DNA of 64,000 bases from Carex sylvatica. Taxonomy: Eukaryota > Streptophyta > Magnoliopsida > Poales > Cyperaceae. Under the pieces are notes generated by a model, which made no database searches, had not been told where the DNA came from, and saw nothing but the letters and a program-made list of their open reading frames with translations. The stretch is taken from assembly GCA_964058845.1 (NCBI GenBank), contig CAXKVR010000265.1, positions 1 to 64,000 of the forward strand. Reading direction: 5' to 3'. Made by a program: the position numbers and the translations under genes. Numbering within the stretch: position 1 is the stretch's first letter; every line of letters starts with the position of its first letter. Shown piece by piece: positions 18,797 through 58,000 of the stretch.

Positions 18797-18805
18797 TCAA
18801 ACTAC

Positions 18806-18991
18806 CCGACAATTTTAAAAATACCCAAAAAAAAAAACAAATTGTTAAAAATAACAGGGTTCCAGCCAAATTTTTAAAAATGCCCTGACCGCCTAAAAAT
18901 TGGGCGGTCCGGAATTAAAATTCCTAACCGTCGATAAATGGGGTGGTCCGGAATTTTAATTCCTGACCGCCAATAAATGGGGCGGTCCGGG
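18806..18991 (+). repeat. Left terminal inverted repeat of the large MULE
   Basis: This 186-bp repeat pairs with 32467-32651. After an AT-rich outer 85 bp it contains two to three units of about 44 bp, each with inverted GACCGCC...GGCGGTC arms followed by CGGAATT-type sequence. These are plausible transposase binding sites. The two terminal repeats differ at only a handful of bases, for example CAGGG against CATGG near 18855. Confidence 0.92.
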
Positions 18992-19123
18992 CCTATAAAT
19001 ACCCCCCCACAGCACTTTCTCTCTCCTCACAATTCATTTTCTAAAAATCTCACTCTCTCTCCTCCCCACCCGAATTTCTCCTCTTTTTTCTCCTCTCTTC
19101 TTCTCTCTTCTTCCAATTTGCAA
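18992..19123 (+). promoter_or_regulatory. TATA box and pyrimidine-rich leader of the PMD gene
   Basis: TATAAATA at 18994-19001, immediately inside the terminal repeat, is followed by a CT-rich leader. The leader ends at a consensus donor (CAA then GTAAGT at 19124), which makes it a non-coding first exon of about 100 bp. The matching acceptor is the CGTAG at 21251-21255 just before the ATG at 21257, giving a 2.13-kb 5'-UTR intron. Confidence 0.7.
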
Positions 19124-19230
19124 GTAAGTCCCTATATATATTTGAAATTTCATTTGTAGTGTAAAAAAATTATAGATTAGTCAAATTAAGTTAGTTAGTG
19201 CTAATTAGTTATAATTGTGATTATTTAATT

Positions 19231-19460
19231 ACGGTACCAATTTAGTGGTAATTAGCATTAATGTAGGTACCTAAAATATTTAAAATTAGTGATAATTATG
19301 GTACCAAAGTTAGTTTTAATTTTATTTATAATTATGATTATTTTATTACGGTACAAATTTAGTGGTAATTAGCGTCAATTAGGTACCAAAAATATTTGAA
19401 ATTAGTGATAATTATGGTACCAAAGTTAGTTTTAATTTTATTTTGAATTATTTAGTCCGA
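19231..19460 (+). repeat. Two-unit direct repeat of about 118 bp in the 5'-UTR intron
   Basis: The unit containing AGTGGTAATTAGC...GGTACCAAAGTTAG occurs twice, at about 19231-19348 and 19349-19460. It lies upstream of the larger array and shares its AATTAGC-type motif. Confidence 0.65.
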
Positions 19461-19536
19461 AATTTTGCCGTAATTAGCGTATTTTAGCATAATTTGACCG
19501 TAATTAGCATATTTTGAGAAATGTAGTATATTTTTT

Positions 19537-21128
19537 GTCGTAATTAACGTAATTTAGCCTATTTTTACCGCAAATATATTGTTTTAGTGTATTTCCGCTT
19601 GTTTTAGCATATTTTAGGCGAATAACATTTTTTTTTTATTCTAACGCATTATTTTAACATATTTTTACCGAAATTAGCATATTTAGTAAATTTTTGCCAT
19701 AATTAGCGTATTTTAGCATATTTGACCGTAATTATTGTATTTTATCATATTTTAGTATATTTTGTCCGAATAACCTTTTTTTTTCATATTAACGTAATTT
19801 AGCCTATTTTTACCGCAAATATATTGTTTTAGTGTATTTTCGCTTGTTTTAGCATATTTTAGGCGAATAACATTTTTTTTTTATTCTAACGCATTATTTT
19901 AACTGTTTTTTACCGAAATTAGCATATTTAGTAAATTTTTGCCATAATTAGCGTATTTTAGCATATTTGACCGTAATTATTGTATTTTATCATATTTTAG
20001 TATATTTTGTCCGAATAACCTTTTTTTTTTCATATTAACGTAATTTAGCCTATTTTTACCGCAAATATATTGTTTTAGTGTATTTCCGCTTGTTTTAGCA
20101 TATTTTAGGCGAATAACATTTTTTTTTTATTCTAACGCATTATTTTAACTGTTTTTTACCGAAATTAGCATATTTAGTAAATTTTTTCCATAATTAGCGT
20201 ATTTTAGCATATTTGACCGTAATTATTGTATTTTATCATATTTTAGTATATTTTGTCCGAATAACCTTTTTTTTTCATATTAACGTAATTTAGCCTATTT
20301 TTACCGCAAATATATTGTTTTAGTGTATTTTCGCTTGTTTTAGCATATTTTAGGCGAATAACATTTTTTTTTTTATTCTAACGCATTATTTTAACATATT
20401 TTTACCGAAATTAGCATATTTAGTAAATTTTTGCCATAATTAGCGTATTTTAGCATATTTGACCGTAATTATTGTATTTTATCATATTTTAGTATATTTT
20501 GTCCGAATAACCTTTTTTTTTCATATTAACGTAATTTAGCCTATTTTTACCGCAAATATATTGTTTTAGTGTATTTCCGCTTGTTTTAGCATATTTTAGG
20601 CGAATAACATTTTTTTTTTATTCTAACGCATTATTTTAACTGTTTTTTACCGAAATTAGCATATTTAGTAAATTTTTGCCATAATTAGCGTATTTTAGCA
20701 TATTTGACCGTAATTATTGTATTTTATCATATTTTAGTATATTTTGTCCGAATAACCTTTTTTTTCATATTAACGTAATTTAGCCTATTTTTACCGCAAA
20801 TATATTGTTTTAGTGTATTTCCGCTTGTTTTAGCATATTTTAGGCGAATAACATTTTTTTTTTATTCTAACGCATTATTTTAACTTTTTTTTACCGAAAT
20901 TAGCATATTTAGTAAATTTTTGCCATAATTAGCGTATTTTAGCATATTTGACCGTAATTATTGTATTTTATCATATTTTAGTATATTTTGTCCGAATAAC
21001 CTTTTTTTTTCATATTAACGTAATTTAGCCTATTTTTACCGCAAATATATTGTTTTAGTGTATTTCCGCTTGTTTTAGCATATTTTAGGCGAATAACATT
21101 TTTTTTTTATTCTAACGCATTATTTTAA
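19537..21128 (+). repeat. Tandem array of about 245-bp units, 6.5 copies
   Basis: The landmark GGCGAATAACATT recurs at 19617, 19862, 20108, 20353, 20599, 20843 and 21088, a period of 244-246 bp. Units are nearly identical, with one or two variant forms (AACATATTTTT against AACTGTTTTTT) that alternate in part, so some amplification may have been by dimers. Within a unit, shorter blocks such as TTAGCATATTT and CGTAATTA repeat. The array sits wholly in the 5'-UTR intron of the PMD gene. Confidence 0.95.
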
Positions 21129-21256
21129 CTTTTTTTTTTCTTACTAGGGTAGTTTTGTATTTTTTTGATATGAATTAGCTTATTTTATCATATTTTAACA
21201 GGAATGAGCTTATTTTAGTCAAATGTAGCATGTCTAATTTTTTTTTCAAACGTAGG

Positions 21257-24200
21257 ATGGCTAGGGGACGTCCTAGGAGACCACCACCACCCGACCCTAT
21301 TGATGAGCCCATTCCCGTGGATAGCACGGAGCATTTCAGTCCATTATTATGGATACCTCACAGTGAGCATCGAGTCTCACTAGCATCCCGAGAGGTACGT
21401 GATTATTTTTTTTTTTCTTTTTTTACGTTAAATTTTTTTAGAGTTCTCATATTTTCATATTTTTATGTTGTTTGTTTTTTTTTCAACGCAGAGTCAGGAG
21501 TCTCTAGAAAGCAAGTGTCGGGTTTATGGCATGCAGTACTACTCTCTGATGGACCCGTATCTACACAATCTGGGGTTGTACCATTTGGTCGATATATTGG
21601 AGATAGAGAGCAAGGCCATTAATGCGTCCCTCATTCAGGGGCTAGTGGAGCGATGGCGCCCCGAGACACACACATTCCATTTGCCGTTCGGAGAGATGAC
21701 AGTGACTCTCCAGGACGTGAGTGTCCTTTGGGGTTTGCCTATCCAGGGCGTGCCCATCGGTGGCATATCTGACCCCACTGACGAGAACATGATTAATGCC
21801 AGCCTCGCAGAGCTGTTGGGAGCAGAGCCAGATGTACGTGATAATGGTGGGAGATCGAGATTTCATCTGAAGAAGACGGCGCTGCGAGCTCTGTTTGCCG
21901 ATCGAGGTTTGCATTGGCGATCCACGCAGCATGACATTGAGAGGTACTTTTATAAACCATTATATATATATATATTTATTTTGTATTTTATTTCATTGCA
22001 AAAAATGGGTTGGTCCCTAATTTTGACATTTCAGATACACACGGGCTTTCGTGATGGACCTGTTTCGAGCGGTCATGTTTCCTGATTCGAGCGGTGATGC
22101 CATTCCGATTATGTATCTGGAGCTGTTGAGAGACCTTGGGTCATCAAGAAAGTACAACTGGGGTGGAGCCGTCCTGGCACATCTTTACTCCAACCTGTGC
22201 CATGCTTGCAAGGTCAGTATGTTATTGTTGTCTTATTTTTAAAAATTAACTTGTTCCGACGTCTAATATTCTTCAAATTGCAGCCTAAAAGTAAGAAGAT
22301 GTACGGGCCGACACTTCTACTGCAGCATTGGTCGTGGTCGCGCATACAAGTGGCGGTACCCGTGCAGAATGAGTCACTACATTCGGGAGAGCCCGATGAT
22401 GCATATCACCCGGCATTTGGCAAGAAATGGTACGGGGATCACCGCTACGTGGACACGCCTCACGGAAAGCCAGCAGGCATCAGGTTGGTCCGTGGTCAGT
22501 TGCAGAGTCTGGGTGACACGCAGGTGAGCTGGACTCCGTATGCTGAGTCATACTGTGAGGGGAGGCTGCCACAGATTATATCAGATGATGAGGAGATGTG
22601 GCTCTACAGGGGTCCGCTGATTTGCTTCTGGATAGTGGAGCATCACTATCCAGACCGGGTGCTCCGTCAGTTTGGACTTCCTCCACTCATCCCCGCAGAT
22701 CCAGACATCCCGAGATCTATTATCACGAGGCTACACGGGTACGTACAAGTTATATTTTTCTTGAATTTTGTATTTAATATTAGTTGTTGTAAACACTAAT
22801 TTGCATGTAACATATTAATTACAGGACGTACCACGGTAATCACGCCGATAGAGATTGGAGTACGGCTTTCCTGGAGCACTACGACATAGCAGGGACCATG
22901 AGGGAGAACTTGTGGCATATTGATCGCACGAGAATATATGCCAAAAAGTTTCAGTATAGCAAGCTATACTTCTTAAACCTTTGTTATACTCTGTCAATTC
23001 AGATAGCAAGTGAACTATCCTGTCGTTGAGTATGCTCAGGTATCGATCCACAGGGACGGAATAAAAACACTGGACTTATCCTAAAATCACTTGAGATTCT
23101 AGAAGTGAGAAGAATTTGGTTTGGTTTTAGTTCTAACAATTCTACTGATTAAAAGACAATAAGAGATAATTAAAGTTGTTTTCAATTGATAAAAGGGCGT
23201 TTCCAGGGTTCAGATTTCATTTCTGTTCAGTCTCAAGGCGTACGGCCCGTACAGATTCCCGTACGGTCCGTATGGCACCTCAAGTTAATGCTGCAGCTAC
23301 TGTTTCCTGTGTTGATACTGTGTTTAGGGTTTCTTTTGACCAGATCTAGATACCTAACCTCAACTTTCGCATTTTGGCCTGATACCCGATTACCGGACTC
23401 AAGTACTTCCCTCTTAGATGCGTTAAACCTCAACTTTCGCATTTTGGCCTAATTTATCTAAGTTATTTGTTAGTTTACTAAAAGTATCCAAGGACTTTCG
23501 CCTCAAGGAAAGTTTCGCCTTTCGGGTACTCCTTGGTTTCACCCTACTTCATATACTTTATTCGGTTGGAATGAATTTCATAGACTTGGCTCCACACTTA
23601 GATGTGCGCATTCATCTAACGGGATGACTAATCAGATTCAAGCAAGCACAAATAGAGCAATAAAAATACTACATAACAAAGTAAAAACCAAGCGTTCAAC
23701 ACAAAATCATAGTAGCATACAAGCAAAACTAAACTAGAAACTACATCTTATCCCTAGAAACAAAGTAAATTAGCTACTCATGTTCATAAGATAACACAAA
23801 TAACAAGAAATAAAAGAGTTCATGACAAAACAGTGGAAAATCCGAAGATCCGTGGAAAACTCGCGTTCTTCCCTTCTCTTCTTCTTTTCCCCTTGTCCAA
23901 AACCTAGCAAGAATGAATGATAGAATGAATGATCGGAAAGTTATTGATTGATTAGCTATTAATCCCCTTTCCTGCTGTGGAATATCTCCTTTAATGCCCC
24001 AGATCATGCCTCCAGGGGTTTCCTTTTCGGCTCCTCAAATTGTGCTCAATTCAGATTCCAGCTGGATTTTCCGAATCAGCTTTGTACGGCCCGTACACGA
24101 TCCCATACGGCCCGTATGCCTGGACTTTGACTTGGAGACTTTGTGCCTCTGTTGTGGATCCTTCTGTGTGGTTGGGCAGTTCTTGTACGGCCCGCACAGA

Positions 24201-27200
24201 ATATCATACGGGCCGTATGAAAAGTTGTCAGAACCAGTTTTTCGCCCTTTTTCCTGCAAAATATCAAACAAAACATAGCAGTACCACATTTCATCGAAAT
24301 ATAAGTAAAAAGTCCACATTAATAGGCTTTAAAGCACAGGTTTCATTGTAAATTAAGGCCATAATTCAGATATAATATGGAGATATCACATATGTCGGAG
24401 GATTATGAGACGCAGCTGCAGGGGTCTCCCCTACTGAGATACCAGGCTTGGTACCTGCGGGTCGGCATGGCATCAGTGTATCTTGAGGGAGATTACGGCA
24501 ATTATCTCCGCTCCAAGATCTTCGAAGATGATGGTTATACTCCCACTGGCAGAAAAGGGGCTCGTGATGTAAGTAATGCACCTAAAACAACTCATTTTGA
24601 CCATCTTTTTAACCTTTTTTTTCTAATGTTTCTTATTTTAATTTTTTTAGTTGCTACTAGCGGTTAAAGGTGGAGCACATTCAATCGTTTGTCTTGGAAA
24701 GCGTGGCTTCAGGGCTTTTGGACACACAATGTTGAACTACTTTGCGCCTTGTATTGAGGGCCACGGCCACGAGGCCAAGCTAGTCACGATGCTCAGAGAC
24801 GCCGGAGAGGACATCGATTGGCGCAGAGTACATAGGGATGAGCCCGACGCGCCACCTGTTATGACTGCTGATATGCCACCAGAGCCCGCAGACCAGCCAG
24901 AGTGGGACTACCACCGTTGGGTTCTGGGCATGTCTAGTTGGCACGCCTATTTTGACCAGTATGGACGTCCGTGTCTTCCCCAGGTTCGGTATTATTTATT
25001 TTATGTCAAGTTAGTTAACATTTTCTCATTCAGTAAAGTAAGTTAGTTAAAATTTATTGAATTATTTGTTTCCTTGCAGGGTCCTGCCTACATGCCGACA
25101 CAGCCTGAGCACCAGACTAGATCCCCGGAGCTTCCTCAAGTTCGGTCTTCTTTATTTTATGTCAAGTTAGTTAAAATTTTCTCCTGCAGTAAAGTACGTT
25201 AGTTAAAATTTAGTTAGTTAAAATTTATTGAATTATTTGTATCCTTGCAGGGTCTTGCCTACATTCCGACACAGCCTGAGCACCAGGCTCGATCTCCGGA
25301 GATTCAGTCTATGCATGAGTCTCAGGGCATGGAGTTCAGCCTTGCAGATCTAGCTCCAGGTGATCAGTGGGATACAGCCGCTTCTCCTGCACCGCATCAG
25401 CCGTATCCAGCGAGGGCTCACGATTGGGAGGCCTCTGGTAGCGGGACTCAGCCTGACTTATCCTTGTTTCATACCCCTCTGCCAGCTACACACGCCGCCG
25501 AGGATCCATGGGGTACAGCACTCACGATGAGCAGAGAGCCTGAGCCCGAGGTCGAGATCACACCAGCTCGTGTGGCGCAGGAAGGAGAAGTACAGTGGAA
25601 TAACTGGAATCGAGTTTTCACCAGAGAGAACAGTGTTGGGGTTTTGACAGTTCAAACCCATTGATTTGATTAAGTGCGGAAAGAACGTAAAACAAAATTT
25701 TTACTTCTAATCTTAATCCAAGGATTAAACGGGGTATGTCAGGAAACATTCCAAGGGGTCCACCTTCCGTATTCCTTTGACATCAGAACCCTATTTAATC
25801 CTTTTACAGATCTACTCCATAATTGATTTCTAAAACATTAATCTACTTACCAGTTAAATAGATTAATATAACTTGTATATACCTTGTTTCCAAATTCTGA
25901 TTGGAAAGCAGACCGAGCGAGAAGAGCTACACCAGGGAATGACTCGTCTCGGAGTATCACACGTGTGATACCTCTATCGGTTATTCACCAGGACTAACCG
26001 GAGAGCGGTTTATTTCTTATTGCCAGAAATACCGTAAACCGCGGTTTTCTGCAAAAATACTATTCACCAAGAAAAGGACGAAATAACACTATTCACGAAT
26101 TTGCAGTTATTCAGATTCACTAATGAGCAAAAACTGAAATACTGCGAAATTCGAGAAAACACTATTCACCGATCCCGTAAGTATACTTCTCAACAACCCG
26201 CAAGATTATACGTCAACTACGTATAACTTTCTTTTCCCAACCGAAACACTATTTGGGAGAGAAACCGAGAAAGAGAGAAAATAGAAACTCGAATCGATCT
26301 GACAATCTGATACGATGTGAATTAGCAAGTTTTTCTCTTACCCTCACCCCTCTATTTATAGGCATTTGAGGAGGTTCTGGAATTACGTAAATGTCATTTA
26401 CCAAAATGCCATTTACGGAAATGCCATTTACCAAAATGCCATTTACGGAAATGCCATTGAATGGATAAGGATGATGACATGTCATGTGTAAAAAGACCAA
26501 AATGCCCTTGTGGATAATGTTGATGACATGTATGGATAATGATGAATTTAAAAGACAAAATTCAATTAATATCCATATGTCATATATATAATTGTTCTGA
26601 ACAGTTATATTTCTTGCGGTTGTTGTTTCGGTAATTTTTATACAACGTGTCGTGCACGTTTATAATTTAACCATTGTTTTGGCTTGTCATCTTATATGAC
26701 ATTTATAATTTAATTATAACACGTATAATTAATTATAACCATCTTAATATTAATTATAATCAATTTATAATTAATCAATAAGATTCTCCAATTAGCTCCT
26801 ATACGGTGTGACCCAATAGGATCTGTGTTATGTTGGTAAATAGAATTAAAACTGTTTTAACTTCTATAATCATGAGAGGCATCTGGCATAACGCGTCATG
26901 ACCATCCAATTACACAGATGATGCTGTACTGTACAATATCACGATCCAGTAAACTATTTTACTCGTGTCAGTTCTTTCGTCTCATAGCTATCAGATCAGT
27001 TTCAAGGTAGGTGTGTGTCATCCTTGCAAACTTAATCTTTTCTTGATCTTGAGCAGATTATCAAATATAATTACTCTTGTAATTATACCGCTAGCAGATA
27101 ATCTTACTCTATCAAGGGGCCCAGTGATGCTATAGCTCGTATAGAGATACGATGGACAATAGTACTTTTGGTAAACCATCACTACCTCAGCTAAGCTATG

Positions 27201-27760
27201 TGTACCGAAAAGCTACCGTTATAACTGCGTTTTACCGACAGCGTTAGATAACAATCACACATACACATCTCTTAGTAGGAAAGATGAATACCTCATACTT
27301 TAGAACTTAACACTGAATGAAAACATTAATGACACATACACAATTCTATTTAATGTTTCATTCGGGGTCTGTCAAATACCATGTTCCTAGAACATGTATC
27401 TATGTGATTAAAATGACATCTCTTGTCAGTGGTCTGTAAAACTTGACCATCTTTTAATCCACATACTAACCTTGTAACGGTTAATTAGTGTTCCTGCTAA
27501 TTACCTCGGTTAGTGACTTTTAAGAATATATAACATCTATATTATGAAGTTTCACAATTCCAGTTATTGACTCTAGTCAGATAAAGGAATGATTCATAAA
27601 TGTAATAATATTCAAGACAACAAAATGACAGTTTATTTAATCACTCAATTCATGAACAAAGCTTTATGATAATTTATCGTATTATTGACTTCTAGATTAT
27701 TACAAACTAACAAACAGAGGCAGACCAGTTGACCGATATTCCGATTCGCGGTATCGTTGA
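21257..27760 (+). CDS. Plant mobile domain (MAIN/MAIL-like) protein encoded by the MULE, interrupted twice
   Basis: Exons: 21257-21394, 21492-21943, 22035-22212, 22284-22738, 22825-22939 continuing (after the insertion) at about 24374-24568, 24651-24983, 25080-25139, and 25251-25633 continuing at 27718-27760. All junctions are GT-AG and in phase, giving about 783 residues. It opens with MARGRPRRPPPP. The PMD (plant mobile domain, PF10536) pattern follows: GLVERWRPETHTFHLPFGEM, TLQDVSVLWGLPIQG, KYNWGGAVLAHLYSNLC and WSWSRIQVAVPV. The C-terminal about 260 residues are Pro/Glu-rich, ending in DRYSDSRYR. PMD proteins MAIN and MAIL1 act in heterochromatin silencing in Arabidopsis, and a transposon-borne copy might counter or co-opt silencing (inference). 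As it stands the gene is broken by two insertions; their removal restores one frame. Confidence 0.85.
22940..24370. mobile_element. Unclassified 1.43-kb insertion in PMD exon 5
   Basis: PMD coding stops making sense after ...RTRIY at 22939 and resumes at about 24374 (NMEISHMSEDYE) in the same phase. The inserted DNA has different composition and no GT-AG edges. It carries six copies of a palindromic TACGGCCCGTA-type motif (23240, 23262, 24085, 24106, 24185, 24208), a duplicated AACCTCAACTTTCGCATTTT (about 23358 and 23427) and a GTATCGATCCACAGGGAC motif at 23040. That motif resembles sequences I recall from plant LTR elements. A 4-bp ATAT duplication is possible. The class is undetermined. Confidence 0.65.
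24981..25310 (+). repeat. Tandem duplication of an exon with its intron in the PMD gene
   Basis: A unit of about 156-170 bp is repeated: CAGGTTCGGTATTATT...GGTCCTGCCTACATGCCGACA at about 24981-25135, and CAAGTTCGGTCTTCTTT...GGTCTTGCCTACATTCCGACA at about 25137-25310. It duplicates an intron plus the 20-codon exon encoding GPAYMPTQPEHQTRSPE, giving GPAYMPTQPEHQ...GLAYIPTQPEHQ in tandem in the protein. Both copies keep splice sites and phase. Confidence 0.85.
25634..27712 (-). mobile_element. Solo LTR of 2.08 kb inserted in the last PMD exon
   Basis: The ends are TGTTGG and CTAACA, with a perfect 5-bp duplication AACAG at 25629-25633 and 27713-27717. Excising it joins ...FTREN to RGRPVDRYSDSRYR and a stop, in frame. 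On the minus strand TATAAATA at 26353-26360, followed by a GGGGTGAGGGTAAG leader, marks the promoter, so the LTR points leftward. No gag or pol is present. The length suggests a long-LTR Copia (SIRE-like) or Gypsy family. A short array of TGCCATTTACGGAAA-type units lies at 26395-26460. Confidence 0.9.
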
Positions 27761-28226
27761 TAGAGAGTTTTTTTATTGTTTTCTTTGTAGTGTTTTATGT
27801 TTTATTATGTATTATGTACGCTGATAGCTTATTATGATTTTTGTTCTGAGTTTAGCTATGTTTTATGGTAGTATTTATACAACAGAAAAAATAATAAGAG
27901 AAACACTACATAATTAAGAACAAAAAACATACTAATAGAACCACTAAATCAAAAACAAAATAACACTAAACAAAAAAAACGAGGGTGCAAAGTTGGGGTC
28001 GGAATGAAAACGTCATCAGTTCGGGCTATTTTTGAGCTCTTATATCTCACGATCCGTTCGGAGATTTCGTATGAAACCTTACAGTCCTGTTTGGAAATGT
28101 CAACAATGCATGTCGCTCAATTTTCATGATTTTTGGAGATAGTTTGCTCCGAGAACGAGGGTGCAAAGTTGGGGTCAGAATAAAAATATCTTACAATGTA
28201 AAATTTAAACAAAGGCATTTAAAACC
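27761..28226. other. Convergent intergenic region of the MULE
   Basis: The region holds the 3' ends of both transposon genes. GAGGGTGCAAAGTTGGGGTC occurs twice, at about 27981 and 28156 (period about 175 bp). The sequence between the copies is related to 17220-17350 in the 1.5-kb MULE. Confidence 0.6.
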
Positions 28227-28466
28227 CTATTTCTTAAAAGCCGATTTCTTAGCAGCTGGCTTCTTATCAGCCGGCTTCTTATCAGCTGGCTTAAGATTAG
28301 TTACTCCCGATGATGTGCTCGCCTTACCAGATCCGTATGAATTTTCAACAAAGTCATCGTCTGAAAGGGGAGGATGAACAATAGGTTGCGGACCAAATCT
28401 TTTTCTAAGAAAACAAAATTTACAGTGACATTCTCCTTGCTCGATACCTCGGTTGCTATCGTTCAT
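28227..28466 (-). CDS. Small Lys-rich ORF downstream of the transposase, function unknown
   Basis: The ORF has 79 codons, starting at the ATG at 28466 just after a possible acceptor (TTGAACAG). It has a short Cys/His cluster (CHCKFC) and ends in a repetitive tail, KPADKKPADKKPAAKK, reminiscent of histone H1-like basic tails. It could be a 3'-terminal exon of an alternative transposase transcript or a separate small protein. No family is recognised and coding status is uncertain. Confidence 0.4.
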   Translation of the reverse strand: MNDSNRGIEQGECHCKFCFLRKRFGPQPIVHPPLSDDDFVENSYGSGKASTSSGVTNLKPADKKPADKKPAAKKSAFKK

Positions 28467-28649
28467 CCTGTTCAACAACAAAACAAACATACTATAACGT
28501 GAATAAGTCATATCATAAAATATTAAAACATAAATAAACCATAACATAAACTAATACAATCCATTTACATAAAATAATACAACACATTCACATAAAATAA
28601 TACAACATGTAATCAAACGATACAATACAACTATACAAATTATATTAAG

Positions 28650-31600
28650 TCATCGTCTAAAATTCAATCCCCTCAGCACACGAGATCCCCATGATGATGT
28701 GCTTCTTCTAGCTGGTTGTACTGCTTCTTCTTGCTGGTTTGCTGTACCAGATGGCCCTGCACCATATGTGCTCGTCCCTCCTAGTTGAGATGTGCTCCTC
28801 CTAGGTGGTTGCAAAGCTTCTCCTTCCTCGTGTGCTGTACCAGATGGTCCCGCGTGAGATGTGCTCCTCCTTCCAGCTTGAGATGTGCTCCTCCTTCCAG
28901 CTTGAGATGTGCTCCTTCTCCGCTGGGTAGTACCTGAATGCCCTTGCATCCCAACCACCTCTTCTCCTGTCAGTACTTCTCCCATTGCCTCCCTAAACAT
29001 CATAGTTGCATTTTCACGAAAGGTACGGCTTCTGGCTGTGCTGCGCCTCGACCCTTGCGATCCACTTGCCTCTGCCATAACTCGATCGTTTTCAGCTGCA
29101 TTTGCTGCGTTACGAGAATCTGCAGACCCAATAAATGATATAGTAAGTTATTGAAAAATGTAATAAAATATAATCATTGTTCAATATTACATACCTCGCA
29201 TCTGCCTGTCGGTAGTGGAACGGCGAGGACGGTGCCCTATTTGCCTACCTTGCATTTCATCCATGGTCATTGGTTGACGGATGTGTTTTCTCCTACCATA
29301 CCGTATCCAATCTTTGTTCGGCTCGTATTTTGGGGTAGTGGTCGTAGGCCATTCTTCAGGATTACCGTAGGGAACAAACAAGGCATTCCAAGTACTCAGA
29401 AGGTACTCCATTCTGTACCAGTGGGCAACAAATTGATCGGGGGACCAGCTGTTATGGCGAAAAACCGCTAACACATGAGCGCACGGAATTCCAGTTAGTT
29501 GGATACCTCTGCATTTACATTCCACTGCTCTATCAGCTCCGAATGTCGCAATATACTTGAACTTTCTATGTATAATGGACATAGTTCCATCCTGTGTTTG
29601 GACTACTGGGACATATTCATCTGGGCCCGTGACTTCGTACTTACCTTCGCCGTGCGAGTATGAGATGACATCCATACCCACAGCTTTCTCCCACCGTTTG
29701 GCAAGCTTATCTTGTACCCGTTTGGAAAAAGGCTTACAAGCAGTGCTGTGCTCCATTGCTGCCTGCCGCCGCTGAACAAACCACCTGTTGCACTTGTAGA
29801 ATGTCTCCTCAACAAGTGCAGCTACGGGCAACATTCGGGCCTCCTTAAAGACAGTGTTCAGGGACTCAGAGCCATTTGTTGTCATGATACCAAATCGATA
29901 TCCTCCATCACAGGTTTGAAAGATTTTCTCATAATTTGACGGCTCCATGACATCATTAGGACGTACTTTGCCCACTCTCTTTAAAAAAGCATTACACTTC
30001 GGATTTTGCTGCAATAGAACAAAGTAAAATTAGATGAAATATGCATGTCAAGGAAACAAAAATGATATAACTTAGACAATATTAGACATACCATGGCAAA
30101 ATCTTCGAACATCTCTTTCAGCCTTCTAGGCTTCTTCTTCCTGGCTCCTTGTTTGAACCTGGTTCCGTACCATTTGTCCTTTCCGCACGCCTGCACCAGG
30201 TTATCAGCAACATGCTGCATACAAAATCTGTGCACAAAATTATTCCCATCCCATCCGTATTCGGGTTTCAAAGCAGCTTTGATCGCCTTGTGTTGGTCTG
30301 ATATAACGCATACAAATCTATTAACACCAAGCACATGAATTCTAAACCACTGTAAGAAAAAACCCCAATTCTCTTCATTCTCCTTCTGTACAATTTCAAA
30401 TGCTAGAGGCAACAATTGATTCTCGGCATCATAGCCGCAGGCCATCAAAAGCCGTCCCTCATACCGTCCAGAGAGGAAGGCTGCATCTATACTGATCACC
30501 GGTCTCAAGTAATCAACTGCGGTGATGCATGGTCCATAAGCCCATGCGACGGCCCTGAATTGCTGCACATCTTGCTTGACCAGTCCTGTATTTTTATCGA
30601 TGCTCGGACTAGTCAGAAATTGGTGCCTCGAGCCGGGATTCTTGTCACATATCCCGATAAGCAATAGTTTCATAAAATTGTACGATTCCTCCCAACTCCC
30701 GAATTGTCGGGATACTGCAATCTCACGACCTCTCCAAAGTCGGTTGTACTTTGGGGTTATAGTTCGAAATCTAACCCTCACGCAGTTTGCCACACTCCGA
30801 ATGCTCATACAGGGGTCTTTCTTAATGCTATCCTCGATGATATCTGCAATGATTGATGCCGTGAGTTGTGCATGGTCAGTCCTGGTGTACTCTGACGTGC
30901 ATGTGTGAGGCGTGTCTTGCTCAGTTATTACCCATGTATCTTCATAATTTGTTGCTCTTGCCTTCAGGATAAAATGATAATTCTGAGTGTTGCATCTAAT
31001 TTCCAACCGGGATTTGTCACTTTTGTGAGTATATATCTCCTGATTCTTGTCAACATGGTGCTCTCTGATCTTTTTCGTCAGCTGTTTTTTATTTTCGAAG
31101 TACTGACCTTTTGCGAGCTCACTCTTGTATTCAACCCGATGACCGTAGTAAGAAACATCTGCTTCTCGAAAAGCAGATGTGTCATTGAAGTTTACGAACG
31201 GGTGAGTCTCAGAACGGCCACTTAATGGCATATTTCTATTCTGCCTCACAGTAGGCTGTGTGTATTCTCCTTCATCGGTATCATCTCCCTCATCATTATC
31301 GTCCCAGTGTTCTTCTCCCAATTCATCCCCAGTTTGTAGATTCTCCTCCGGTACTTCGTTCATAAATTCAAATTCTGACTCGTGTGGATCCTCCTGTACT
31401 GGTGGCGGTCTGGGGTGAGGATTTGGTTCAGGCCCAGGTAAGAATGAAGGACCTCTCGACACATATATAGGTGGGATAAAAGGTGGAGATTGTAGTCCGG
31501 GTGGGATCAAATGTGGAGGTTCAGGTGAATTACTATATATTTCTGGTTCTGGCGTTGGTTCGGGTACGAATATAGGAGTGTGTGGTTCTGCATTTTGTTG

Positions 31601-31963
31601 ATAATTTTCTGCAATATAATTTTGGCCTGAACTTCCAGACCCTGATCCTCTGTGAATCCTGCACGCAAAAACTTCGAAGCCACTATCACCGGACCTCACA
31701 GTCCTGTTGATCAGGCCTCTCAATGCCACATCATCTCCCAGTGCAATTCTGAGATACCTTCCTCCTTGGAGCACTCGGGCCATTATTTGTAATTCATAGC
31801 GGTTCCTATTGTAGCCGCTCAAATCGTAAATAAGCGTTTGCAACTCCTCAAATGAGAAATTTTCATCAACCCAACGCGTATTTACTGGAGGTTTGGAGTA
31901 ACGTACACCATACTGGTCAGTTGTGAACTTTCCTCCAAAATGTACGAAAATTCCAACAGACAT
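28650..31963 (-). CDS. mudrA-like: MuDR/MULE transposase (MURA-like), apparently intact
   Basis: Three exons: 31963-30092, 30008-29195 and 29119-28650, with phases and GT-AG sites agreeing, give about 1051 residues. The TTG two codons upstream is ignored in favour of ATG at 31963. Order of parts: N-terminal region 1-105; Pro- and acid-rich linker about 108-240; MuDR DNA-binding domain about 265-360 with a WRKY-GCM1-like HTC end (H353, C355); MULE catalytic RNase H-like domain with D493 (VISIDAAFL) and D556 (CVISDQHKA); SWIM zinc finger C788-x-C790...C800-x-H802; then a tail with three RRSTSQ/HAG repeats from about 900. The DNA-binding finger has C324 but lacks the usual second Cys (NYHF follows). 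It cuts and joins the element ends. No stop or frameshift was seen. Confidence 0.94.
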
Positions 31964-31973
31964 GGCCAATAAA

Positions 31974-32348
31974 CTACATTAATGAATGGTAAATATTTTG
32001 TTAGTTTACTAGTTCCAATTGTATACAGCTGCCATCAGTATTAAACAGTCCTAAATTAATGGTATGTGAACAGTTAATATGTACTTATCAATTTGGGTCA
32101 ACAGTACATACATAAATGAATAGTATGCGAACAGCAAATACGTAAGTGAATAATTTGTCAACATTAAATACGTAAGTGAACAGTAAATACGTACATTAAC
32201 AGTGCGTGAACAGTACGTGAACAGTAAATACGTACATTAACATTACGTGAACAGTACATACGTAAGTGAACAGTACGTGAACAGTAAATACATACATTAA
32301 CAGTACGTGAACAGTAAATAAAATATTTAAAAAATGAACAGTACGTAC
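31974..32348 (-). repeat. Transposase 5'-UTR intron filled with GAACAGTACGT-type repeats
   Basis: On the minus strand CTACAG is followed by the donor GTACGTAC at 32348, and the acceptor TGTAG ends at 31974, ten bases before the ATG. From about 32096 to 32340 the intron is made of short units (GTGAACAGTA, AATACGTACATTAACAGTAC) in repeated combinations. It parallels the repeat-filled 5'-UTR intron of the PMD gene at the other end. Confidence 0.75.
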
Positions 32349-32466
32349 CTGTAGCAGCTCCTTCTCCTTCTCTCTTTCTCTCTCTTTCTCTTTCTCCTTC
32401 TCTCTTTCCTCTGGCTGAAGGCACCTCCTCCTTATAAGGAAAAACCAGGGGAAAAAAAAAAAAAAA
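32349..32466 (-). promoter_or_regulatory. TATA region and leader of the transposase gene
   Basis: On the minus strand a CTTATAAG box at 32431-32438 lies about 30 bp inside the right terminal repeat. It is followed by a purine-rich GAGAAAGAGA leader that ends at the donor at 32348. The position is equivalent to the TATA box at 18994 of the PMD gene. Confidence 0.6.
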
Positions 32467-32651
32467 CCCGGACCGGCCCATTTATTGGCGGTCAGGAATT
32501 AAAATTCCGGACCGCCCCATTTATCGGCGGTTAGGAATTTTAATTCCGGACCGCTCCATTTTTAGGCGGTCAGGGCATTTTTAAAAATTTGGCTGGAACC
32601 ATGTTATTTTTAACAATTTTTTTTTTTTTTGGGTATTTTTAAAAATGTCGG
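32467..32651 (-). repeat. Right terminal inverted repeat of the large MULE
   Basis: This 185-bp repeat is the inverted partner of 18806-18991, including the repeated GGCGGTC...GACCGCC hairpin units. Homology stops abruptly after CGGTCCGGG in both. Confidence 0.92.
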
Positions 32652-32660
32652 TCAAACTAC

Positions 32661-45233: not shown

Positions 45234-48200
45234 ATGAATAACAGGACAACGATTTTAGATGAATGGATGCAACCAAACCCGAGCCCAAGAACCCTATTTG
45301 CAAGCTTTTTAAATGATGATTTCACCCCAAGAGCCTTAGCTGATCAATTAGCCCAAACCCGAACAGAGAATGAAATGGACATGAACACCGGTGAGGAAGC
45401 CGCTTCGTCTGAAGAAGAGGCCCAGTCAAAGGAGGTCAATTTCCCCCAAGAGTTTTCCCTGCAATCACACTTGCATGCAGCTGGGCCTAGACAGTTGAGC
45501 TCAAATGGAGGTTTGGCCGAGAGAATGGCAGCTAGGGCGGGTTTCAATGTGCCAAAGCTCAATACAAGCCGGGTTAACCAGGTGGCAAATGTGGTTGGGT
45601 CGTCAACTGAGGTTAGGTCACCTTATCTGACAATCCCCCCTGGACTTAGCCCAACTACTCTGTTGGAATCACCGGTTTTTCTCTCTAACTTGGTACGTAT
45701 CACATTTTTAACTTGATGTATTTGATATAATCAATATTTGATAAGGGTTCTTTTCTATATTTGTCTGTATTGGGATTTATTTGCAGGCAACTTGTCATTA
45801 GGATATAGAATCCTGAATTGACAGAAATTATTGAACCTGAGTAAATCATAACGGACATTGCAAGTAGTTTTTATTTTTTTGAATTGGAAAATTAAATTTT
45901 GCTAAATCTAGTAGGCAAGTTAATTTTTTTTATTTTGGATGTAGGTGCAACCTTCTCCTACTACTGGGAAGTTACCTTTTTTGCAGAGTAATAACATGAG
46001 TGCTAACCATTTTGGAGATGCGTCAGAATCATTTTCCTTCAAAACTTCTCTTAATCTGAAACCATCATCATCGTCCATCCCAGAAAAGAAGGTACTTTTT
46101 TTTTTTTTTCCTTTCAATTTTACGAATTTTGAGCTGTGCATTTTGCATGCAAACTTCTGCAGTTAGATTGGTTACAAAAACACCACCTCTAACAGGTTGA
46201 AAAAACGTGCGTCATCTTTAAATTACTTTTGTTGAAAAGAACAGACTAGATCTTTGTCAGTGGGATATTCATTCAGGTCCTGTGTATTAGTTGCTTTTGT
46301 TGTTTTAGACTTCATGCAATGCTAGAACATTTCTTAATTTCTGCAACTCTTATGAGGTTGAGTTGTTGAGATTTATCTTGTTCTCTACACAGCCTGTCCC
46401 AAGCCAAGAGAAAGGAGGTGGGTTGTGATAGGCGTGGCGAGCCAATGTAAAATACAGCCTTTTATGGAAATGAAACCCTCACGAAGACTCCGGTTGGGTT
46501 TCATTTCTAGCCTACCCCAACTTGTTTGGGACTAAAGGCTTTGTTGTTGTCGTCTGTAGCTGAACAATGTTGAAATTTTCATAACCTTAGATGAGTAAAT
46601 GCCATTTATCACCACCAAAACTAAAGGTGAAAGAAAAATATATAACCTACCTTATATCTTAGCTCACCTCGTCATCCCCCTTAGTCGATATAGCATAATT
46701 TCTGCTGATTTTGCTGAAAAGGACTACGTAGCGTTTCCTTGCGTCTTGTTAAAGTTCACCCCTTGTATTAATTGTACCCTTCTCTTTTTTTCCTTATTCT
46801 TTTGGAAAAAAACAGGATTCTTCCATATCATTTCCTGTTCAACCTGAGAATAAAACCACAACCACCACCAACAGGACTCAGGATGGCACCATTTCAAGCA
46901 ATCGAGAGTTCAACTTTAATACCGGGTTTTCAAATAGTAAACCAACCCAAGTTGATCCTGCTTCATCAACTGACAATGCTGACAACTCTCCCCCACCTGA
47001 TGATCCACAAGATTTTGAATCCGACTTGAAAGCTGACAACCTGGGTGGCACACCTGCTGATGATGGTTACAACTGGAGAAAGTATGGTCAAAAACAAGTC
47101 AAAACCAGTGAATTCCCGCGCAGTTATTACAAATGTACCCACCTGAACTGTCCTGTAAAAAAGAAAGTCGAGAGGGCACACGATGGACAAGTGACTGAGA
47201 TTATCTACAAGGGAACCCACAACCACCAAAAATCATCACCGAACCGCCGATCTGGCATACCTTTCTCTGACGGGTCTGAAAACTCTAATTTTCAACCAAG
47301 CCAACACCCGAATCAACCTGTTTGGGGCAATGGGCAGAATGGTAGTTCGCAGGAGGTGCAGGGCGAAGGCGTGCAAGAGGTGAATAGATCCGGTTCAGTG
47401 TCTATTCCAGCAGTGCCAGAGTTTGAACCGACCAATCAGGTGATGCCAGGTGGCAACAGGGCCCGCTCAGAGGGACAGAATATTGGTCTGGTGGATTTAT
47501 CTTCTACTGTTTCGAACGAGGAGGATCAAGTGACTCATGGTGCTTCTTTTGATAATGAGGCAGAGGAAGATGACAGTCAAGAGACTGATTCGAAAAGAAG
47601 GTTTGTTTCCTGTGTCAATTTTGGAAATTGATGGATTTAATCAAACGTTGAACTGAATTTAATGAAGTGATTCTATGATGAAATTGAAGAGAAAGAGGGG
47701 TCGATTCTCTTTTCACCAGACTCCATAATCATCTTAATATCCTTGTGTACATTTTACCAAAAGAACCCTAATGTCATAAGATATTACAAAACAGATACAT
47801 GGATCAAATATAGATGTACAAAATATAAGCCAAAAGTGAACAAACTCTCCAACAAAATAGATATTAATTAAGATTTGAGAAATTGTGTTTGAGATGTTAT
47901 AGTATTATCAACTTCTGTTATGTGGGAGTCATGTGGAATTCATAGTTTTTTTCTAAATTTTTAACAAATGGATAAACGTTGGGAGTTTACCTTATAAAGA
48001 AATCTGAGCTAGAAGAACAATGGGTTACCTTAATTATTATATGGCTTTCCTTCTATATGTATGAGAAGGTGCTGTGATTTTGATTTCTATTGTGAATTGT
48101 TCCACCTTTTCCTATCTTTATATGTCCTTTTCCCCTTTTGTGTTTCTATCCTTCTTTACATCCCCAAAATAATAAGATGTATTCAAATATAAACAGGTTT

Positions 48201-50064
48201 AGGTCATGCCAGCTTTCCTATATGCCCATTTGCACTACAAGGAAATGGAAGGGAAGATGATTACTATAAATAATTTCGTATAAATTCATTTATTAATAGA
48301 AATCATATAATAAAAGAAAAATTATGAAAAAAAGGAAAACCATTGATACAGAAACAAACAATTATTACATTATGTCTATTTCAAAAAAAAAAATAATCAG
48401 GAATACATAATAAATGAAACTGTTGATATTGTATCCTAAGATTTTGGGATAACATGAACCACCTTACCCAGTATACAATATGATATTGTATCTATGCAAC
48501 ATAGAGGACATTATTATAACTGAATAAAATCAATGATTTTAAGATTCCTGTATCTTGTTTTTTAGAAAAAGAGTTGATAAAATATCATTTGACTATTAAA
48601 AGTGTTTAATCAATAAATTAATGAATTTTCAGCAAGAATTCCTTTGGTCAGTTTAATCGGAAGTATATAAGATATGGTGCCAGAATGGAAGATATTAAAA
48701 AGATCAATGCATTTCAGAAATCAGCAACCCATGTTCTTTGTTTATTTGTTTGGGATAGGTTTGATAGTAGATATTTTGGTTAAGCACAGGTATTAAAGCC
48801 AGGAGAATCTCCAACTGTGGTATAAGATGTATACTGTTTGGTTGGTTAGTTACCTGACTGGTAGTGTTGGGGCCAGGATTGAGCTCCAATTGTGGTATTT
48901 AGATGAATACTGTCTAGTTGGTACCTGACCAGTACCATCAATTGGTAAATATCTTCTTTGTCGGTTGGCTTTTTTCTTGTTGCTCTTTGGGTGAACTATG
49001 GCAGAAATGGAACTCATTTTTTTTGTTTAATTTTCCAATTGTCTTAATTGAGGCTCGAAAATTAATACCGGTGCGGACCATCAGTATAAACCTACTTTAA
49101 CTTAAGAATCTACCTGACATGCAGGAAGTTGGAGGCATGTGCAGTTGAGATAAATGCGGCATCAAGAGCAGTTCGGGAACCGAGGGTGGTGGTGCAAACG
49201 ACCAGTGAGGTTGACATACTTGATGATGGCTATCGCTGGCGCAAGTATGGCCAGAAGGTTGTCAAAGGCAATCCAAATCCAAGGTATATAGTTTTGCAAT
49301 TCACCCCCGAACTTTTTCTGTTTCCAATTAGTCATGCACTGTTGAAGACACTAGTAAATAGTACATCTGGTTGGTTAGAATTAGTCTCTAGTTTGCCTGA
49401 TAATTGAGCCAAGCCATCAGATTATTTAACAGAAGTTTAAACATGACAATTCAGGAGTTATTACAAGTGCACAAACCCGGGCTGCTCGGTGCGAAAGCAT
49501 GTGGAGAGGGCATCTCATGATCTCAAGTCTGTCATCACGACTTATGAGGGTCGGCACAATCATGAGGTGCCAGCTGCCAGAAACAGTGGTGGCCATGCCA
49601 GCGCTGCCACAGCCCCACCAGCTGCTGCCATGACGCCACAATCCAGTACGTTTAGCTGTCGACCAGATCTAGGTACAGATAGTCTAGGTCGGTTTAACCC
49701 AACCAGCCTTCCTCTTGGCCCATATGGTCTCCCTCCCAGAGACCAGCTGAGCCAGTTTGGCCCAGGTGGAAACTTCTTCCGGATGGGACAGCCAGGCTTA
49801 ACCGGATTTCGGATGCCAGGTCTTGGACCCGTTCCACCTCTACAGTCTAAAATGACAGGGATGCCGATGCTTCCACCCAACATGGCTACTGCTTACTTGG
49901 GGCATAACGGGCAAGGAATGGAGGGGAGGTTTGTGATGCCGAAAGGAGAGATGAAAGAAGAGAACATGAATGATAGTGGGTTTCGAGCTTCCAATGGGGG
50001 CTCAACCTCTTCTGCAGTTTATCAACAGATGATGAACAGGATGCATATGGGGCCTCAGATGTAA
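45234..50064 (+). CDS. Group I WRKY transcription factor, WRKY2/WRKY34-like
   Basis: Five exons: 45234-45692, 45945-46091, 46816-47600, 49125-49283 and 49455-50064, giving about 719 residues. It has two WRKY domains: WRKYGQK at about 289 with finger CTHLNC-x22-HNH, and WRKYGQK at about 501 with finger CTNPGC-x23-HNH. The second domain is split by the conserved phase-2 intron after NPNPR. The N-terminus has the [11 protein letters not shown] and [16 protein letters not shown] motifs with Ser-Pro sites that MAP kinases phosphorylate in group I members. The C-terminal third is Gly/Met/Pro-rich. It binds W-boxes (TTGAC) in the nucleus. The N-terminal motifs resemble Arabidopsis WRKY2 and WRKY34 (pollen, germination and early-embryo polarity roles), but orthology is not proven. 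Intron 2 carries a SINE. Confidence 0.96.
46392..46552 (+). mobile_element. Au-like SINE in WRKY intron 2
   Basis: About 160 bp matches the plant Au SINE pattern I recall: GAGGTGGGTTGTGATAGGCG near the tRNA-related head, and the diagnostic tail CTACCCCAACTTGTTTGGGA followed by CTAAAGGCTTTGTTGTTGT. It lies in the sense orientation. No clear target duplication was seen. Confidence 0.82.
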
Positions 50065-55091: not shown

Positions 55092-58000
55092 TCAATCTGT
55101 ATTTGTAGCTATCTGGAGCAACTCTTGTTCCCTCTGATATATGGCCTTCCAGCGCTCCACCTCCTCTCTATAAAATAAGAGCATGTTAGAATTTTAAAGT
55201 ACAAGAAGATTTATAAAGCGGATAAGAACGTATGCCTAGGAAGGAAAAAGTTCAAAATTGAAATCAACTGGTATGCAATCCATAGCAGAACCCAAAAAAA
55301 AAAAAAAAAAAAAATTGTTCCACCAAGCTACTGTATGTAATAGGATGCTAGTAGACTAGCGGTACACCATTAGGGTTTCATGTCCATTTCACAGCAAACT
55401 CAAGTGGGGGAGAAAACTATCATAAAGAAAAATTAAACATCTACTTGAAAAAATAATTATAAAGAAAAATTAAACATGGAGCAGTTAACTGAGATCTACC
55501 AAAAATATGTTTACAAAAACAGTAAGTTACTAACCGTAGGCATTGGCCAATATAATCGTAATAGAGAAGGCCGATGAGGCGGCGCTTGCCATCCCTCCCC
55601 CGACTCTTTCCACGCTTCACCACAGGAAGTTGCTTTATCCCTTTTGCCTCCATTAACTCTTTTGCGGTAGTCAAATCGGTGTCTTGAAAGCATGTTAGTA
55701 ATCCACGCTCACTTCCTCGGTATTGAAATCCTCTAGTAAGACACGATGAAATCAAAGAATTCCCCTGCATGTATGATTAATTGGATATATGTAAAATGCT
55801 ATATGTAAAGAAAGACCAGTGCCGCCTCAGCAACATGAGTGGTTTCTTTCATTTTATTAGGGCAGTAACATGTCAAATAACATCCAACAATAAGCAAACT
55901 ATCACACAAAAGGGAAAAAAAAAATTACATCTGGTGTGGTGGGTTGCTCTCCCCCATTAACAGAAGCCTCGCCAGGTGAGAAAAACCCATGTCGACGGAT
56001 ATCGCCAAATGTAACAATTCCTTCGAGATAATCTTCACCATCCACAACAAGAACACAGCTCTGATGTCTATCTTGCATTAATTTCACTGCCTCCTTTACA
56101 GAAATATTTGGTTTGACTTTTACATATATCTTAGACATTGCCTGGGATACCTGATAAAATGGAAGAGAAACGAAAAATCCTTTTAGAATGTAAGCATACA
56201 ACTTGTTATTTAAGTATGCAGAAGCTAATTTTCTGACCTTAAGGTCATCCAATAGCAGTTCTTCATCATTAGCCTCACAATGTAGAATGTCAGATTGTGC
56301 AATGGCAAGTTCTAGATCATCTCCACCATTAACCTTTACTAATGCTCCGTCTTTATATTCAAGAGATATAAGAGAATAACCATGCCTGGAGGACCCTTTC
56401 TCGAATAATTTCCCACCCTTGTGCCGATTCGTCACAGATGGGACCCATATTGCTAAACCAACTGCTCCCTATTACCACAAGTGCACAGAATAAAAAGTAA
56501 AAACAAGCAAGAATAATAATATATTGATTAACTTTAAAGTTGGACATATATGATGCATTGTTACCATCAGGGGCAGTAAAATACGGTAATCCTTGGTGAG
56601 CTCGAAGAGAAGCAATACTGAGGTTAACGGAACTGAACAAACAGAAGCCAAAGTTGCTGCCATTCCCACCTGTATGTTCTGGTTAATAGCTGTGGTAATT
56701 TTTTTACAATATTGATGATTATAAGGGCATAAATTAAATTTAGAATATTCAGCAGGCTTTTATATAAGGATATGTTATATACTGACAAAAAAGGTTGCAA
56801 ACTTATATGGTAAACATGACAACTGGTTCAACACTCATTGAAATCCAAAAAGAAAATAATAATAATAATTTGAGGTATGTACTCCATGATTTGGATAGGT
56901 GGTGCATCAAATTTAATTCAATTTGAAAATGAATTGATCATCAATCAAGTGACTTGAAAAATCAACAGTTCAGTTTTGTCAGCATTTGATTTGGTGCTCA
57001 AATGATTCTGACATTGGACCCAATTTAATACACAATCAATCTAGATTATATAGACACATTTACAACTTAGGCTCCTTGGGTAAATTAAAAAAAGTTGCTA
57101 GAATAGCATAGTTGGAAGAGTACGGTAGAAGCGTGGTAGTTGGAAAATGGAAGAGAGCTAGTGTGTTTGATAACCACAAATGAAATAGCACTGAGAAAAG
57201 TAAATTGATGATATTCTAGCACTATTCTAGGGCTATTCTGAGTAGTAAAATGATGATATTCTAGCACAATTCCATCCTTTCCTTAGAATAGCAAAATGAT
57301 GATATTCTAGAGCTATAATGAGTAGTAACTTTGTGTTTGGTAACAAGATTTGTACGGAATTGCATTGTTATTCGGTTAGTGATAAAATAGAGGGTTGCCA
57401 AATGACCCCTCAGTCATTACGGTTCTCAAATAAATTTGGTTGTCAATAATGGAAGGGTATTGACAACATATTTTTTTTGACAACCTCAACAGCTGACAAA
57501 GTTGTTGTCAAAATAAAAAGAGAGTAAAATTGTAGATATGTTTTCCATAGCCAAGATAGGCTGTGTATAAAATTTGATGCAATTTGGGAGTCGTCTAGCA
57601 ATTGCCCAAGTGCAGCTCAAACTGAACCATAAATTTTTCAAGTCACTTGATGGATCACGAACAAATTGCAAAGTGCACCGGATAAACAATTTATATAAAC
57701 TATAAAGAAGATATCTGTTATTTTACTTTTTGATTCTTATAACCCCTTGATTAGTTGTGGCAGTTGTCAATATAACCTATCCAATCAATGATATCACTAA
57801 CCTTTATGTAATGTTGTAAGATATATCAGTCAAGAACAGGCACAATATACTGATTCAGCCATTTTCTCCTCATGTTATATTCCCAAGTATTATACCATTT
57901 CATCAGTTAGCAAGTAAATACATCAAGATTTAGTTAAATGCAACTATACATGAGGGCGATATGGTGATTTTCCTCTTAATAGTGATAAAAAACTAAATAA

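Follow-up and report, generated by a model that had tools for sequence, protein, structure and literature searches.

A window of 64,000 nucleotides from the sedge Carex sylvatica (assembly GCA_964058845.1, contig CAXKVR010000265.1, positions 1 to 64,000 of the forward strand; "the window" below is this whole stretch) contains a Mutator-like element (MULE) that carries, besides its transposase gene, a gene for a plant mobile domain (PMD) protein. This locus raises the question of whether the PMD gene belongs to the transposon and, if it does, what it would do there. Judged from sequence comparison, the pairing of the two genes is old and common to many MULE families of this genome, and the PMD gene is an integral gene of the element. 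As to function, we infer, with a probability of roughly one-half, that the PMD protein serves as a helper, keeping the promoters of its own element active in the face of host silencing.

The MULE copy occupies positions 18806-32651. Its ends carry terminal inverted repeats (TIRs) of 186 bp that agree at 178 of 186 positions, and both flanks carry the perfect 9-bp target-site duplication (TSD) TCAAACTAC, a word that occurs at these two sites only in the window and not at all on the other strand. An earlier analysis made from the letters alone (the sequence-only reading) had described a complete MULE with 185-bp terminal repeats, a perfect 9-bp duplication and two convergent genes, and this description is borne out: the transposase gene lies on the minus strand and the PMD gene, with a match to PF10536, on the plus strand. 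The transposase has exactly the 1051 residues given by that reading, in a frame free of stops. It matches PF10551 MULE (E 1.2e-16) and SWIM above the cut-off; DBD_Tnp_Mut, the MuDR DNA-binding domain, falls below threshold (22.7 versus a cut-off of 25 bits). These domains, the long TIRs, a TSD in the 8-11-bp range and multiple copies at different sites are the features by which a MULE is recognized. The closest database proteins to the transposase are 84-85% identical, and the best named relatives of both the transposase and the PMD protein come from Carex, with Rhynchospora and the grasses further down. The proposal that each gene is promoted from its own TIR fits this anatomy, since TATAAATA is present at 18994, just inside the left TIR, and both genes appear, when read by eye, to have an intron in the 5' untranslated region (5'UTR).

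The sequence-only reading also held that the element mirrors mudrA/mudrB of MuDR, with mudrB replaced by a PMD gene. The two-gene layout, with PMD in the accessory position, is indeed MuDR-like; "replaced", however, describes a positional analogy. MURB differs as a protein from PMD. The likeness to maize MuDR is one of layout and consists of two opposite-strand genes between long TIRs, one of them encoding a MURA-type transposase (PMC9168764).

The PMD gene of the window copy is itself broken. Two private insertions split exon 5 and the last exon, so that this copy holds no full PMD frame; both sites are uninterrupted in all 16 other copies analysed. The inserted sequences have 40 (insertion 1) and 45 (insertion 2) matches in the genome, often as same-strand pairs that are ~10.5 kb and ~7.4 kb apart, respectively, an arrangement like that of long terminal repeats (LTRs). 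Read straight through, the frame consists of 440 native codons and 35 insert codons, with a stop at codon 476. Because the PF10536 core, which spans residues 85-400 in the intact protein of copy C60 (E 1.1e-67), precedes the break, a truncated PMD protein is possible. The 783-residue protein of the sequence-only reading would require both inserts to be spliced out, and that figure has to give way to the 770 residues encoded by intact copies.

Whether the PMD gene belongs to the element can be read from the rest of its family. A TIR search over 64 Mb of this genome, in which the best 40 of 279 candidates were scored, gave at least 40 strong places. All 14 other copies with both ends listed were taken as complete, and two of ten one-ended loci (C201 and C179) were taken in part. 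Each of the 14 has a perfect 8-9-bp TSD at a different site. The PMD gene is found in every one of them as well as in the two partial copies (16/16), and the two genes converge in all 15 copies that have any transposase sequence, C116 having none. Thirteen of the 16 have an open PMD frame of 770 codons (750 in C116, which lacks 60 bases at the boundary of exons 7 and 8); the frame of the other three is disrupted, by frameshifts in C282 and C238 and by two stops in C201. Nine of ten full-length transposase genes, the window's included, are open, and that of C321 has one stop. Pairwise DNA identities, taken between equal-length sequences only, are 98.7-99.8% among 13 PMD sequences (with C201 but without C116) and 99.3-99.8% among 8 transposase sequences, and identity this high indicates that the family is young and has moved recently.

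The transposase side gives a similar count. Among the matches listed, 20 of the 21 transposase loci that are at least 97% identical have a PMD gene (one of them, C499, is counted from PMD exons 6 and 8 at its contig start). The remaining locus, C335, has a near-identical transposase and no PMD match among those listed; its left end is absent from the listed TIRs, and it may be a damaged copy. The sequence-only reading had named copies without the gene as the observation that would make PMD a separate insertion. C335, itself possibly damaged, is the one locus that speaks for an unrelated insertion inside a transposase-only MULE; the 14 complete copies with their own TSDs, the two partial ones and the convergent PMD genes of diverged families rule that origin out, and it is scarcely credible.

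The pairing is also seen in those diverged families. In a transposase search (best 51 of 731 candidates, merged into 49 loci), a convergent PMD match lies within 12 kb at 37 of the 49, and the paired loci include families whose transposase is just 43-50% identical to that of the window. Gene spacing in diverged families is near-constant, at 2051 bp in five and 2561 bp in five. Of the 12 loci left, six do face a PMD gene, either in other match lists (C195, C196, C526 and C141) or farther away (C158 and C703, at 17.9 and 12.0 kb). Sets built from Pfam matches only gave 117 merged PMD loci, whose closest MULE neighbor at up to 12 kb was convergent in 59, tandem in 3 and divergent in 1, with none in 54; random placement gave a mean of 1.8 convergent loci and a maximum of 7 in 200 trials. 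A census of PMD exon 4 (150 of 166 matches, compared with the best 150 of 305 PF10551 candidates plus 10 transposase loci) found 77 convergent, 2 divergent and 0 tandem partners within 6 kb, and none at 71 of the 150 listed loci; in the other direction, 75 of 150 listed MULE matches lie 12 kb or less from a convergent PMD exon 4. In addition, transposase identity and PMD identity vary together across elements (Spearman 0.87, n=40; 0.62 for the 21 diverged ones). (It should be noted that the rows of the censuses and of the correlation are related copies and not independent events, so their p values are not to be taken literally.) Taken together, the orientation bias and the parallel divergence indicate that transposase and PMD have been inherited jointly. 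As a separate observation, another MULE family gives equal-score PMD matches and equal-score MULE-domain matches on the same nine contigs (C35, C190, C321, C387, C584, C665, C700, C843 and C877), which suggests either a very recent burst or assembly duplication.

Copies that have lost the transposase bear on what the PMD protein does. In C107, C336 and C56b, a single shared deletion has removed most of the transposase gene; its 5' breakpoint and its joining sequence are the same in all three. These copies lie at three different sites with different duplications, so the deleted form has transposed two or more times, provided that gene conversion did not spread the deletion. The transposase deletion of C116 is a different one. 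All four keep an open PMD frame, at four target sites. Among the matches listed, 25 loci have PMD exon 4 at 95% identity or more, and six of these are without a transposase among those matches. These observations lean towards retention of PMD where the transposase is lost, on the basis of two deletions. They can be set against the idea that PMD is a MURB-type transposition cofactor, working in insertion, nuclear import or end-pairing and without a role in silencing. The PMD gene has the same convergent position as mudrB, without which work cited in PMC9168764 detected no new MuDR insertions, and the transposase and PMD diverge in parallel, as partner proteins might. However, a purely trans-acting cofactor would be unneeded in the transposase-less copies that kept it (again two deletions), and MAIN and MAIL1, to which PMD is related, have roles in silencing and in the regulation of genes (PMC5418596, PMC7156037). 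A cofactor role is possible, if doubtful, and ranks next after that of an anti-silencing helper.

A quite different use of the same copies is also conceivable, in which PMD would act as a self-repressor and hold down the number of copies of its element by way of the host silencing pathway. P-element repressors act as regulators of their own element, and PMD-only copies could serve as regulators in a similar way. The host relatives do promote silencing (PMC5418596, PMC7156037). The 25 high-identity PMD loci, however, represent a recent spread of the family with the gene aboard, and a repressor role appears rather improbable.

That PMD genes lie antisense in MULEs, and that they may counter silencing, is already published (PMC6446971 Table 1; PMC5418596). 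In Table 1 of PMC6446971 (Dupeyron et al. 2019), where we take the abbreviation PMD to mean plant mobile domain, groups 42 MULE-Solanaceae_1, 47 MULE-Monocots, 48 MDR, 49 MUDRAVI2 and 50 MUDR bear PMD, in most members and antisense sometimes, often or for most depending on the group; PMD is also entered for groups 45 (VANDAL) and 46. The window family resembles these groups in its plant host and in having the PMD gene inside the element and antisense to the transposase, and several of the groups have a 9-10-bp TSD, long TIRs and a SWIM finger. The table gives one cell per group, whereas the genome studied here provides number, layout, copy integrity and joint divergence. According to PMC5418596 (Ikeda 2017), the first description of PMD involved a rice MULE, and grasses and Amborella have MULE-PMD fusions; the paper argues that MULEs captured host PMD, infers two PMD-C captures and proposes anti-silencing. 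Its PMD-C/MULE cases are fusion proteins, in contrast to the two separate genes on opposite strands of the window family. PMC8616336 repeats the anti-silencing proposal for transposon PMD proteins and describes PMD proteins as silencing transposons in Arabidopsis by a largely unknown mechanism, and PMC7156037 reports that MAIN/MAIL1 interact with PP7L and that TE-associated PMD-C occurs outside eudicots. The Mutator elements called Abermu (Gao 2022, PMC9168764) are also alike, in that some have a second, opposite-strand ORF (open reading frame), ORFR, and that they occur in Poales and are described as nearer MuDR than other MULEs; they differ in that neither PMD nor a mobile domain is mentioned in the text, ORFR being compared here by description, and in that the Carex element there has a transposase only. 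No report of PMD-bearing MULEs in sedges was found in the limited literature searched, papers outside it not being covered.

In the helper mechanism that we favor, the transposase would perform the cutting and joining, and the PMD protein would compete with or imitate the MAIN/MAIL-PP7L pathway. Alternatively, it might bind the leader repeats of the element, as VANC does. The window copy, without a full PMD frame, would depend on its sister copies. The alternative version draws on VANDAL21, a MULE whose accessory gene acts against silencing. Its dynamic tandem repeats, which are formed by the targets of VANC, lie within introns of VANC21 and VANB21 and also upstream of VANA21 (PMC5735166). In the window family, the apparent 5'UTR intron just inside the TIR holds a tandem array in both genes. 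In 16 copies, the element end and the PMD start are 1439-3698 bp apart; the leader on the transposase side, measured in 14 copies, has 631-739 bp. VANC carries DUF1985/DUF287, whereas the PMD protein of the window family matches neither. DUF1985 matches do occur in 7 of 42 PMD proteins; six of them (P0032, P0036, P0054, P0069, P0073 and P0111; E 0.0017-0.2, all below the cut-off of 35.1 bits) are all from eudicots and have the match at a similar position. A link between PMD and DUF1985 is thereby only hinted at.

A small third ORF lies between the two genes. It has 74-84 codons, with an exact start in 11 of 17 sequences, and is preceded by a splice-acceptor-like sequence. Among the matches listed, it is found at 24 places at 88-100% identity and at further ones at 45-76%. 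Eighteen of 29 diverged places are within 8 kb of a PMD match, 8 on the strand opposite PMD and 10 on the PMD strand; its orientation differs by family and can be that of either gene, transposase or PMD. A wider proposal would unite these features: antisense PMD genes would be VANC counterparts acting on the leader arrays, PMD and DUF1985 would be distant homologues, MAIN/MAIL would have been domesticated or counter-adapted from a transposon-borne family, and the third ORF would be a further module. As a whole, this proposal seems to us unlikely.

The origin of the gene was addressed with an unrooted tree of 35 PMD domains, whose rows do not include Arabidopsis MAIN and MAIL1 or any clearly cellular host PMD. 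The sequence-only reading had suggested such a tree, asking whether this copy groups with host genes or with a transposon clade. It groups with sedge and grass sequences, several of which lie in MULEs of this genome, and apart from the sampled MAIL3, MAIL2-like and MAIN-like proteins. That reading also offered the transposon gene as a possible ancestor of the host genes; PMC5418596 argues for the opposite course, in which MULEs took up PMD from the host. The window family (family A) and family B are each joined to a Carex littledalei protein of their own (98/89 and 100/100, respectively); the two lineages are probably older than the split from that Carex. A separate clade (100/98) holds 13 rows, comprising MAIL3, MAIL2-like, MAIN-like and other eudicot proteins, one palm protein and eudicot PMD-MULE fusions; membership of the window gene in a MAIN/MAIL-type clade, as sampled, is not supported. 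Two grass proteins with PMD and phosphatase domains fall among the sedge sequences, without strong support. A Carex PMD protein, searched against the sequences of solved structures, had no match at E 1 or below. In this genome, the PMD loci C251, C395 and C61, without a convergent MULE match, and C120:99418, with a tandem one only, are candidates for cellular genes.

Database entries in which a single predicted protein contains both a PMD and a MULE domain come from Heliosperma, Vitis, Chenopodium, Actinidia and Dendrobium (those of the first four: P0158-P0161, P0173, P0211, P0213, P0253, P0255 and P0264); gene prediction may have joined neighbors in these cases. In the tree, the fusions from Heliosperma, Vitis and Chenopodium fall among PMD proteins of eudicots and are thus probably of separate origin; the Actinidia and Dendrobium fusions were left out of the tree because the matched stretch was too short.

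Differences among the copies show how far the PMD gene is constrained. The 13 open PMD copies have 49 changing and 28 silent differences (N/S 0.60 of opportunity, p = 0.035); 13 of 17 sequences were used, the window, C282 and C238 (frameshifts) and C201 (two stops) being dropped. Ten of 16 transposase sequences (C158, C221, C336, C56b, C107 and C116 dropped) have 41 changing and 23 silent differences (N/S 0.58 of opportunity, p = 0.04). PMD is therefore under weak overall constraint, and none is visible in shared differences. Differences common to at least two copies are 11 N : 3 S in PMD (unconstrained) and 2 N : 8 S in the transposase (constrained), counted on partly different copy sets; in the seven copies common to both sets, PMD has 8 N : 3 S and the transposase no shared difference. 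The overall ratios speak for a working helper and the shared differences against it; several other observations, C335 among them, also weigh against it. Five loci with more distant transposases (C767, C565, C34:484314, C150 and C86:11267) have no PMD listed nearby, and the 71 exon-4 loci without a MULE match within 6 kb were compared with the best 150 of 305 candidates. The two leader arrays of the element are without a common 10-base word under the cut-offs used, and the 770-residue PMD protein gives no match to DUF1985/DUF287 up to E 1. PMC9168764 reports Abermu elements with a transposase alone in 17 plants, Carex littledalei included, and suggests, from polymorphic copies in rice that lack the opposite-strand ORF, that this ORF may be unimportant for transposition.

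The unconstrained shared differences would also suit a functionless passenger, a captured host gene carried along by Pack-MULE-like transduplication, and MULEs do capture host genes (PMC5418596 infers two such events for PMD-C). A passenger, however, is disfavored by the convergent census, by the recurrence of the same layout in families with such distant transposases, and by PMD frames that remain open over their length in 13 of 16 copies; we regard it as quite improbable.

The coordinates of the features are collected in Table 1. Around the element, the window holds host-like genes with pentatricopeptide repeats, WRKY domains (two ORFs) and a CBS domain. Rfam at gathering thresholds gave no match in the window.

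Table 1. Positions of the element, its genes and surrounding features in the 64,000-nucleotide window (aa, amino acids).
Feature	Position	Strand	Details
Left TSD TCAAACTAC	18797..18805		word count in window
Left TIR, PMD side	18806..18991	+	178/186 versus right TIR; internal 39-bp repeats
245-bp tandem array, 6.6 copies, apparent PMD 5'UTR intron	19531..21137		repeat scan
PMD gene with 8 coding exons, broken here (intact copies encode 770 aa)	21257..27760	+	copy comparison
PMD exons 1-4	21257-21394, 21492-21943, 22035-22212, 22284-22738	+	
PMD exons 5-7	22825-24568 (interrupted), 24651-24983, 25080-25139	+	
PMD exon 8	25251-27757 (interrupted), then stop codon 27758-27760	+	
Private insertion 1, PMD exon 5	22921..24388		1468 bp, TG...CA, TSD CATAT, solo-LTR-like
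Private insertion 2, PMD last exon	25634..27712		2079 bp, TG...CA, TSD AACAG, solo-LTR-like
Small third ORF, 79 aa, CHCKFC motif, Lys-rich tail	28227..28466	-	between transposase and PMD genes
MULE transposase gene, 1051 aa, open	28650..31963	-	coding exons 30092-31963, 29195-30008, 28650-29119
~30-bp tandem array, apparent transposase 5'UTR intron	32100..32320		repeat scan
Right TIR, transposase side	32466..32651	-	TIR comparison
Right TSD TCAAACTAC	32652..32660		word count in window
ORFs of host-like genes	533-1891, 46753-47628, 49447-50061, 55905-56468	-, +, +, -	domain matches

What is new here is the scale and depth of the pairing, the PMD gene kept in transposase-deleted copies, the conserved third ORF and the VANDAL-like leader arrays. 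The pairing persisted while both proteins diverged to ~45% identity, and about half of the listed PMD exon loci in this genome face a listed MULE transposase. Transposons have been proposed to use PMD proteins of their own against PMD-dependent host silencing, and this genome offers a test system for that proposal, with a young family of ~20 two-gene copies that are nearly identical, elements that are alike except in whether the PMD gene is open or broken, and copies that have lost the transposase and retain PMD.

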